Below are positions 24,919 through 48,598 of a stretch of 48,598 nucleotides of DNA, one piece after another. The DNA lies in NCBI GenBank assembly GCA_027013295.1, contig JALUXP010000087.1, positions 1-48,598 on the forward strand, given 5' to 3'. Source of the stretch: Sulfurimonas sp. Its GTDB lineage: Bacteria; Campylobacterota; Campylobacteria; Campylobacterales; Sulfurimonadaceae. Positions within the stretch are counted from its first letter, which is position 1, and every line of letters begins with the position of its first letter. The position numbers and the translations under genes are program-made. Under the pieces are notes generated by a model. It had not been told where the DNA came from. It saw nothing but the letters and a program-made list of their open reading frames with translations, and ran no database searches.

Positions 24919-25103
24919 TTTTTTATTTATTTGCACTTCAGCTTAAAGCTCACTTACTAGATGTAAGCTTCACTTTAAACTTCAGCACAACTAAATCAAA
25001 AAAACAATTTATTAACTTTGAATTTTTCTTTTATCAAGGAAATAATTCACGAAGCATACATTAGTATGTGAGTGTATTCTTGACACAGAGAAAAGTAAAA
25101 TTT

Positions 25104-39309: not shown

Positions 39310-39371
39310 TAAGTGCCTCTCCATAAATAGCCTTATTGCTGAAGTTGGGGTTATTTATGGAGAGGCACTTA
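39310..39371. repeat. 20-bp perfect inverted repeat, MITE-like
   Basis: Arms 39310-39329 and 39352-39371 are exact reverse complements starting with TAAGTGCCTC, with partial pairing continuing inside (CC/GG). Both outermost dinucleotides are TA, as for a TA target duplication. The right arm plus its inner flank (AGTGCCTC... to ...CCCCAACTTCA on the minus strand) recurs at 46944-46973. No coding sequence lies between the arms. It could instead be a bidirectional terminator stem. Confidence 0.7.
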
Positions 39372-46632: not shown

Positions 46633-47047
46633 TTAAATCTCCTCAAACCTTGTCTATTTTCGTAGACAAGGGCTTTATAGTGTTTTTTTGTAAAAGGAAG
46701 TGAAATGATACACTTAAAAACATTAAACAAAAGAATTGCTACAAGGTCACAAGGTATATTCTAAGTAAGAGGGCATAAATAACTCAACTCTCAAACATAG
46801 AAAAGTCAACTTCACCCAATAAACAGGCACTTTACAGTATCATTCTTTACCACAAAATCTATATAAAGGTGAGTTTTTTGGTGGTATAGATATGGATGCT
46901 TAACTTCCACCACACAAATGAGACAGGCATCTCTGTTCCATTGAGTGCCTCTCCATAAATAACCCCAACTTCACAGAGAAATTATATCCACCTAGCTGTA
47001 TGTGGATTTATAAAGCATGAAAAACTTCGACTAAGTTACAAAATAAA
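46633..47047. other. Gene-poor region with a hairpin and a repeat copy
   Basis: 415 bases with no credible gene. At 46648-46671 a perfect nine-base-pair hairpin (CCTTGTCTA, loop TTTTCG, TAGACAAGG) lies just before the phosphomutase ribosome site. At 46944-46973 is the 30-base copy of the repeat from 39.3 kb. The rest is AT-rich with no recognised fragment. Confidence 0.6.
46944..46973 (+). repeat. Second copy of the 39.3-kb repeat arm
   Basis: Thirty bases identical to the reverse complement of the right arm plus inner flank of the inverted repeat at 39310-39371 (AGTGCCTCTCC...CCCCAACTTCA). Only one arm is present here, with no matching inverted arm nearby, so this is a solitary end. Confidence 0.75.
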
Positions 47048-47500
47048 TCACTTTGCTATTAAGGAAAAAAATATATATTGAAGCTCTACGGAGTGCTTAT
47101 CATTAAGTCCTTTTTGTAAATTCATGTTATCTCGAAGTTTATTTAGCCCTTCTTCTGGATCGGCAGCAAACTCCATCAATTTACTCAATCTTCCAGTATC
47201 TTGCGTTGCTTTAACAGCAGAACTTTCTTTCATATATTCACTATAACTTCCAAATTCGCTATCTTCTGCAATTTTTATATTTTCTACATCGGAAGCAAAT
47301 TTTCCTGCACTAAGCTTTTTCGCAACATCTTCCATCACTTCCGCTGCACTCTTACCAATAGTTTTTCCTATTTTTTCTGCTTCATTCTGCAATCCCTCTA
47401 CCGCACCCTTTTGCTGTGAGACTTTTTGGGATGCTTCCATCTTATCAGTAGCAGTAGCACCATCAACCCCACCCTGAGCAATGAGTTTAGCTTGTGTGCT
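47048..47500 (-). pseudogene. Fragment resembling a conjugation (TraG-type) protein
   Basis: An open frame of 150 codons from a TAA at 47501-47503 to a stop at 47048, with the only ATG at 47440. The product is soluble, Ala/Gly/Lys/Glu-rich and helical (AQGGVDGATATDKM, AAEVMEDVAKKLSAG, ENIKIAEDSEFGSYSEYM), the composition of the cytoplasmic/periplasmic tail of TraG-type mating-pair proteins. The last 20 residues no longer fit that pattern. No start signal and no neighbouring tra genes, so it is probably a remnant. The family call is from composition only. Confidence 0.4.
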
Positions 47501-47843: not shown

Positions 47844-48125
47844 TTATGCAGTAGCTTGTAGCTTAACACCTAAAGAATTTAGAACCTTTGTAACTGTTTC
47901 AAATTTTGGATGAGCATTAGCTGAAAAAGATTTATATAGGCTCTCACGACCTAAGCCTGTATCATTGGCGATTTTGCTCATTCCTTTAGCTTTAGCTACA
48001 TTTCCAACTGCTTCAAAGAACTCGTTCATATCTCCATCTTGAAGAACTTGTGTTAAATACTCAGCTATAACTTCCTTGTCATCAAGGTACTCAGCTATAT
48101 CAAATGTTGTAAGATTATTCATCAT
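47844..48125 (-). CDS. HigA-like antitoxin (addiction-module antidote family)
   Basis: 93 residues: acidic N-terminus with TFDIAEYLDDKEVIAEYL, then a helix-turn-helix at about 50-80 (MSKIANDTGLGRESLYKSFS) and the closing KFETVTKVLNSLGVKLQ. This is the order of the downstream protein of RelE-type pairs of the HI1419/HI1420 class. It binds the toxin and the shared promoter. Overlaps the toxin gene by 11 bases. Confidence 0.88.
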   Translation of the reverse strand: MMNNLTTFDIAEYLDDKEVIAEYLTQVLQDGDMNEFFEAVGNVAKAKGMSKIANDTGLGRESLYKSFSANAHPKFETVTKVLNSLGVKLQATA

Positions 48126-48414
48126 CTAACTCCTCATTAATTTGTTTTGCTTTTTTTATATCATCACTTTGGGTTGACTTGTCACCACCAATCAAAAGAA
48201 TCACAATTTCTTCATTTTGAGTGGTGTAATAAACTCTATATCCTGGACCAGTAGTTATCCTAAGTTCAGATATATTTTCTCCAATAGATTTATGATCTCC
48301 AAAGTTACCCAATTTCATTCTATCAATTCTACGAAGTACGGCTACTTTACCCTTTATATCTTTGAGTTTACGCAGCCATTTCCAAAATGTATCTGTTTGT
48401 TTAATTATGTACAT
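48115..48414 (-). CDS. RelE/ParE-family toxin (HigB-like)
   Basis: 99 residues from the ATG at 48414: TDTFWKWLRKLKDIKGKVAVL, RIDRMKLGNFGDHKSIGENISELRI, GPGYRVYYTT and the C-terminal IVILLIGGDKSTQSDDIKKA match HI1419-type RelE-fold mRNA interferases. A longer frame to 48519 has no support because the promoter lies at 48421-48449. Toxin precedes antitoxin, as in higBA. Intact, so the pair is probably active. Confidence 0.9.
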   Translation of the reverse strand: MYIIKQTDTFWKWLRKLKDIKGKVAVLRRIDRMKLGNFGDHKSIGENISELRITTGPGYRVYYTTQNEEIVILLIGGDKSTQSDDIKKAKQINEELDDE

Positions 48415-48420
48415 AATGAT

Positions 48421-48449
48421 ATTGTATCCTAAAAGATACAAAATGTCAA
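48421..48449 (-). promoter_or_regulatory. Toxin-antitoxin promoter and operator
   Basis: On the minus strand TTGACA (48444-48449), a 17-base spacer and TACAAT (48421-48426). The inverted repeat TTGTATC (48422-48428) / GATACAA (48435-48441) covers the -10 box and spacer and is the expected autoregulatory site of the antitoxin. The leader is short, with +1 close to the toxin ATG. Confidence 0.75.
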
Positions 48450-48490
48450 TTCTAATATTAAATACTGACTTAACTACACTTTCCAAGAAA

Positions 48491-48598
48491 TCATCCAGTT
48501 TTGAGTAAAAAATCCACAAACTTATTAGGCTTGTAAGTCCTATTATTCGAACTCTGTTTATTTTCCTTCAAAAACTGATTTGATTTAATGATAGTTTC
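48491..48598 (-). CDS. 3' end of an unidentified gene at the right edge
   Basis: A frame open from the window edge for 35 codons to a TGA at 48491-48493; the peptide is Lys/Asn-rich (KSNQFLKENKQSSNN, then KFVDFLLKTG). No domain can be seen in so short a piece. It would be the gene upstream of the toxin, 42 bases before its -35 box. Confidence 0.4.
   Translation of the reverse strand, partial: ETIIKSNQFLKENKQSSNNRTYKPNKFVDFLLKTG

Follow-up and report, generated by a model that had tools for sequence, protein, structure and literature searches.

A 62-bp palindrome in a Sulfurimonas genome as a probable deletion derivative of a dispersed double-hairpin transposon

Introduction

Several bacterial MITEs with TA as target, namely RUP, Correia/NEMIS and ERIC, are described, in the portions of the sources available, as short, dispersed and highly base-paired sequences with terminal inverted repeats; the ends of RUP match an IS, IS630-Spn1 (PMC2229807, PMC10969869). 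In the accessible part of the report on REPINs, two inverted structured repeats with compensatory changes form one unit, and single repeats of this type are read as defunct remnants (PMC3116915). The CIR repeats of Caulobacter and Brucella, as far as the corresponding part of the source tells, have two arms and a linker, and the account given assigns them a GANTC motif in a loop but no terminal inverted repeats (PMC2229807).

Here we describe a palindrome from a Sulfurimonas sp. contig, located in a window of 48,598 nucleotides (the whole stretch of DNA analysed), and the family of elements to which it belongs. Like RUP, Correia/NEMIS and ERIC as those sources present them, the element is short, dispersed, bounded by TA and by terminal inverted repeats, and highly base-paired; unlike them as so presented, it has two inverted arms, conserved internal loops and ends of several transposon types. 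It shares with REPINs the arrangement of two inverted structured repeats as one unit and the presence of compensatory changes. It differs from the available description of REPINs in its longer arms, its separate terminal stem and its target-site copies, and its link to Y1 consists of one remnant (locus L248, see below). From the CIRs, which it resembles in having two arms and a linker, it is set apart by a 33-bp terminal stem. ERIC, too, is a TA-flanked imperfect palindrome, and the series GCAAG...CAGGA...AACGCAGC can be followed by eye in the same order in both; however, ERIC is 127 bp long and forms a single hairpin, whereas our element has two arms. The MITEs of Thiomargarita, to judge from the part of the report available, are other MITEs than these (PMC4853749). 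A search of the literature, most subscription journals lying outside its coverage, returned no recognisable description of the present elements.

Results

The palindrome and its family in the Sulfurimonas genome

Positions 39310-39371 of the window read TAAGTGCCTCTCCATAAATA-GCCTTATTGCTGAAGTTGGGGT-TATTTATGGAGAGGCACTTA and span 62 bases: a TA, 58 bp and a second TA. The perfect 20-bp inverted repeat with TA at either end, and the 30-base copy at 46944-46973 (AGTGCCTCTCCATAAATAACCCCAACTTCA, the reverse complement of the right arm and inner flank), are exactly as an earlier note on this DNA had them. A scan for arms of at least 16 nt spaced within 60 nt returned three inverted repeats in the 48.6-kb window, of which this was the longest (23 nt, 96%). 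DNA folding gave z-scores of -9.1 and -9.4, none of 200 shuffles being equally stable. Read against the family described below, the element comprises the left TA (39310-39311), the outer 18 bp (20 with the TA) of the family's 33-bp end as left terminal inverted repeat (39312-39329, plus strand), a GCC (39330-39332, plus strand), a right end of type A (39333-39369, plus strand) and the right TA (39370-39371), the two TAs being target-site copies. The first 20 bases are thus terminal repeat, and the last 40, which run to 39371, match end A at 40 of 40 positions; this outer stretch of end A is made up of the 33-bp terminal repeat followed by TTATTGC from the stem of the first arm.

The genome measures 2.06 Mb in 134 contigs, and the window is its contig C87. 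BLAST with the 101-bp region around the palindrome returned 59 matches in this genome, and the outer 14 bases (one mismatch at most) matched 55 times, versus none for the reversed control pattern. Chance is excluded for the inverted repeat with its dispersed copies. Hand sorting of the 55 ends (TAAGTGCC) yielded 11 in resolved pairs (7 elements), 2 half elements on C65, 31 single ends and 11 that run off a contig end within the element. Five of the single ends (with a mismatch and an extension of 20 bases or less) are possibly chance, about 0.7 chance matches being expected by a hand estimate. TA lies outward of nearly all 55 ends, as is partly built into the search pattern. The earlier note had taken identity over 30 bases as a mark of recent spread, an interpretation that the family does not bear out: both sites are two of the 55 ends of one dispersed family, and the one at 46944 is a single end with transposase debris.

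Beyond the common 33 bp, the end continues into either of two interior types, A and B. In the resolved full copies, C120:14119-14387 and C99:22757-23025, an A end is paired with a B end. Elements with these ends therefore exist in full, the lack of any such element having been named in the note as what would speak against its reading. Other Sulfurimonas genomes hold copies of 232-288 bp (267 typical) with the variant TAAGTACC; altogether 6 of 100 genomes, the present one counted, match the family. The set viral_contigs gave no match to the family, and viral spread was rejected. Two end matches beyond Sulfurimonas, in Clostridium and Bacteriovorax, came without a partner end and without an arm and were taken as chance.

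Two further observations concern single ends. Another palindrome, GACCTTACGCACC...GGTGCGTAAGGTC (L029, L137 and L138), resembles the CTGACCTTACGCATC end type of L206; on C43 (C43:60700-60772, L029) it lies immediately next to a single end of the family to which the window element belongs. At C76:34332-34852 (L030), the frame of a gene seems by eye to enter a 21-bp single end, which would supply its last codons (LIYGEALK).

Structure of the full element

The full element, of about 265-270 bp, consists of the TA copies, a 33-bp terminal stem (TAAGTGCCTCTCCATAAATAACCCCAACTTCAG) and two imperfect hairpin arms of about 96 nt, which repeat one motif in opposite orientation on the two sides of a CCC-NNN-GGG centre. 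From its outer to its apical part, each arm comprises an outer stem of about 19 bp, a 3-bp clamp, a loop with AAGGC opposite AACGAA, an 8-bp stem, a second loop with GCA opposite AA and an 8-bp apical hairpin. Fold energies of 13 elements ranged from -116 to -147 kcal/mol, the terminal stem enclosing the two long hairpins. Among 22 arms, two-sided changes were seen in 33 of 38 pairs, and none of 500 shuffles reached the covariation score of 0.659. When 82 arms were taken, in an alignment fitted to the model, 95.4% of the cells were paired and the score was 0.928, versus 0.24 after shuffling. The letters of the internal loops are conserved, with a column-mean majority of 0.82-0.95 in the four strands versus 0.53 in the outer stem. 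Rfam, applied to nine loci, recognised only tRNAs at gathering score and no other known RNA family.

A broad end pattern was used to list type-1 ends in 20 genomes and gave 35 facing pairs in 13 of them. Left and right ends showed 17 differences over the 35 elements, against an average of 55.6 when right ends were reshuffled within genomes, and none of 100,000 such reshufflings went as low; in 22 of the 35 pairs the two ends were identical. Thus, the ends of one element share mutations that are absent from other elements of the same genome. This agreement points to a correction of one arm on the other, as template switching between the arms of a palindrome would produce; selection for pairing is the alternative. 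Under either account the mismatched loops persist, although arm correction should erase them.

End types and candidate transposases

At least three end types carry the same arms, with target copies of TA, of TAA (TACCAA...) and of 4 bp (GGGCACCTCTAA...). For type 1 (TAAGT...), TA flanked the element left and right in 23 of the 31 paired rows (one row is without left flank and two are the same element); of the remaining eight, one lacks a flank and others resemble mutated ends. Type 2 (TACCAA...) had TAA on both sides in five of six rows, and in the sixth by eye. Type 3 (GGGCACCTCTAATAACC, in the complete genome G350) showed a 4-bp duplication in 15 of 17 two-ended elements, 18 loci having been fetched. 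Many dispersed copies with terminal inverted repeats and target-site duplications, the hallmarks of a MITE, are thus observed. The earlier note's description of the palindrome as a minimal MITE with a TA target stands as to type and target; it fails as to the unit, the palindrome being more probably a deletion derivative of the element of about 265 bp.

Ends of type 3 flank an intact IS5-family transposase on a plasmid of Aliarcobacter faecis (L300; NF033581, E 2.7e-79). The ends of this element read GGGTACCTCTAAAAAC, flanked left and right by ATAT, and match those of the GGGCACCTCTAA... sister type, but an arm is lacking in it (R3 reached 8.2 bits at best, E 1.4), whereas our elements carry arms. 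N-terminal IS5-type transposase fragments lie at type 3 ends at L269 and L271. For the sister type, therefore, the ends appear from these three loci to be held in common with an autonomous element. The sister type also has the features of IS5 ends (GGGTACCTCTAA, 4 bp), which the window's end type, with TA only, does not. The same arms behind different end types imply different transposases, or at least different subgroups. Near a GGGCACCTCTAA end at L271, a Mutator/IS256-type transposase gene (PF00872, positions 735-1921) sits beside the broken IS5-type fragment.

The second site of the window bears another kind of transposase. Positions 46941-47069 (plus strand) code for the C-terminal ~43 residues of a transposase of the IS701 family (NF049921, E 4.2e-4; 44% and 50% identity by tblastn to two plasmid IS701 proteins). 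This remnant overlaps the single end at 46944-46973 (minus strand), which consists of 30 bp of terminal repeat with the TA mutated to TG and is without a flanking TA (TTG, then AGTGCC). The same IS701-like piece is found on C63 (L124 378-521; E 9.4e-6, 52-53% identity), likewise at a family end, so that tails of ~43-48 C-terminal codons stand beside one family end at two loci. The sequence at 46944 thus shows a single end joined to debris of an IS701-type transposase. The 30 bases of the family end fall into register with the coding stretch ISxSPT...TSQ, and an IS701-like gene may be the origin of the end or may have recombined with it. The ends of the two plasmid IS701 copies differ from those of the window family, for whose transposase the IS701-like tail is the only hint.

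The earlier note had thought of IS630/Tc1-type elements as partners. That an element of this kind supplies the transposase is unlikely: the target copies are TA, as it would require, but DDE_3 (PF13358) found no match in the genome at E values up to 1 in a search that was positive in control genomes, the debris beside the end is IS701-like and the sister end type is of IS5 kind. An IS630/Tc1 transposase may also have been lost, or may lie within an assembly gap. As for the full element bearing a transposase between such ends that the note envisaged, the places listed in the 20 genomes searched (19 with a match) included no facing pair at the distance of an IS.

Origin of the short forms

The sequence ...TAAATA-GCC-TTATTGC... 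in the window palindrome could be reached from a full copy in two microhomology steps, at TAAATA (before GCC) and then at C.TATTGC, which would make the GCC a deletion junction. A comparison between species bears on this. A 55-bp palindrome (L079, genome G095) and an element of about 265 bp (L185, genome G096) have the same terminal TA before the same ATG, which suggests that minis can arise through deletion in place; the ends of the two differ in sequence, and two independent insertions at one TA also fit. For the window element no empty site was found, the relatives aligning only from about 39419 on. Minis of 50 bp and 55 bp recur in type-3 genomes; shrinkage, or else transposition of minis, is general. 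We consider it very probable that the 62-bp palindrome goes back, through internal deletion, to a non-autonomous DNA transposon of about 265 bp, which would be moved by a DDE transposase acting in trans and could have shrunk by folding.

The short palindromes could instead be mobile themselves, the window copy having jumped as 62 bp with two terminal repeats sufficing for the transposase. Minis of equal size at different sites (three of 50 bp and three of 55 bp in G346, G386 and G344) speak for this, as do two 54-bp minis, on C125 and C27 of the window's own genome, that share their left junction. However, the latter two differ inside (AAATCTC and AAACCTC) just as full-length B ends do and have their junction at a shared CCTCT, so that recurrent deletion explains them; the 62-bp form was seen once in this genome, and shrinkage in place is indicated once (L079/L185). 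We regard independent movement of the short form as distinctly unlikely.

Deletion also offers an account of single ends. In two pairs of loci, L030/L058 and L031/L074, the intergenic region with a single end in the present genome contains a full copy in a different species, which would favour deletion as their source. The genomes of L058 and L074 have the variant GTACC where the present one has GTGCC, independent insertion being also possible, and one or two such coincidences are expected by a hand estimate. An insertion truncated from the start, in the manner of 5'-truncated retroelements, was also weighed as a source of the single ends: their outer end is intact and their inner edge varies, the intact outer end being partly built in, since the search was keyed on it. 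Alignment of a C128 end with L105 revealed no insertion in common, and in the comparison of L080 with L181 a different element, of GGGCACATCTAA type, occupies the site.

Arms across the genus and the phylum

A covariance model of the arm, R1, was applied with strict filters that make all counts lower bounds. Arms were found in at least 82 of 135 Sulfurimonas genomes and, in the phylum, in at least 54 of 397 genomes and 23 of 68 genera. They occur mostly as inverted pairs about 10 bases apart, and a measurable pair was present at 40 of 51 loci examined. BLAST with the arm consensus gave no match in plasmids or phages. Fragments of the arm led to a second double-arm element in the present genome (C23:39149-39414; L136 350-615), with terminal stem AATACCAATCCCAGC..., ends TACCAATCCCAGC and TAA on both sides, whose terminal stem and outer stems are unrelated to those of the window family. 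The larger element of which the window palindrome is probably a remnant is thus a member of a class that occurs across the phylum and combines a conserved double hairpin with ends that can be exchanged.

Against ERIC, R1 scored 6.7 bits, not the best; R2 recovered one of three ERIC loci, at rank 8 of 39; and R3 recovered none of the three, with a best match in one further set (12.4 bits, E 0.38). Kinship with ERIC is a lead, the three arm models giving no reliable recovery of it. Elsewhere in the window, the tRNA-Lys/tRNA-Glu spacer at 24919-25103 gave two weak arm-model matches (15.5 and 13.7 bits; RNA fold z -3.8), and a toxin-antitoxin-like pair, an addiction-module antidote (PF21716) and a Gp49-like protein (PF05973), occupies 47844-48519 (minus strand).

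Discussion

The likeness to REPINs raises the question of whether a Y1 (HUH) single-strand transposase moves the family, as RAYTs are thought to do for REPINs. The structured hairpins form an inverted pair with compensatory changes, as they do in the accessible account of REPINs (PMC3116915). At L248 (G386:C1:1293224-1294147), moreover, the 924 bp between GGGCACCTCTAA-type ends hold a Y1_Tnp (PF01797) remnant and, on the opposite strand, an N-terminal IS5-type fragment. The second of these makes the Y1 sequence possibly a passenger, and target-site copies are present in the family (TA; 4 bp in 15 of 17). To our knowledge, Y1 elements of the IS200/IS605 type are without such copies. We hold movement by a Y1 enzyme to be improbable. 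That the hairpin serves the tRNA-Met/tRNA-Asn unit, as a terminator or in mRNA processing, and is not a mobile sequence is very improbable, for although it folds strongly and lies 3' of these two minus-strand genes, no T-run follows it, a terminator scan omits 39310-39371, and the same sequence stands at dozens of unrelated sites, a copy number that contradicts such a primary role while a secondary effect on transcripts is possible.

Movement in trans and shrinkage by folding could proceed as follows. A DDE transposase would recognise the terminal repeats and insert the element at TA. Whenever the element became single-stranded at a replication fork it would fold on itself, and the polymerase would copy one arm off the other, keeping the arms matched while their sequence drifts. 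Were the polymerase to skip the hairpins instead, by slippage at the fork, a short palindrome like that of the window, or a single end, would be left. The unpaired loops would escape this evening-out and are probably selected as a site of contact with protein or RNA.

A more speculative reading, which we put forward tentatively and with less than even confidence, sees in the phylum-wide double hairpin a payload module carried on unrelated transposon ends (TA, TAA and IS5 types), the lasting unit being the arms and not the ends. The conserved loops, unpaired in the folded single strand of DNA or RNA, would then serve for binding or processing, and since the arms are inverted, either strand would on exposure offer one of them in its active sense. 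If so, one conserved folded core would have spread through a bacterial phylum by means of several types of transposon, and why mobile elements keep a structured interior would become a testable question. The family would also provide a natural system for following, by comparison of genomes, how the arms of a palindrome stay matched, are corrected and collapse into short palindromes and single ends. A short palindrome or one-ended repeat that stands alone in these genomes can accordingly be debris of an element, as opposed to a regulator or a sign of recent transfer.
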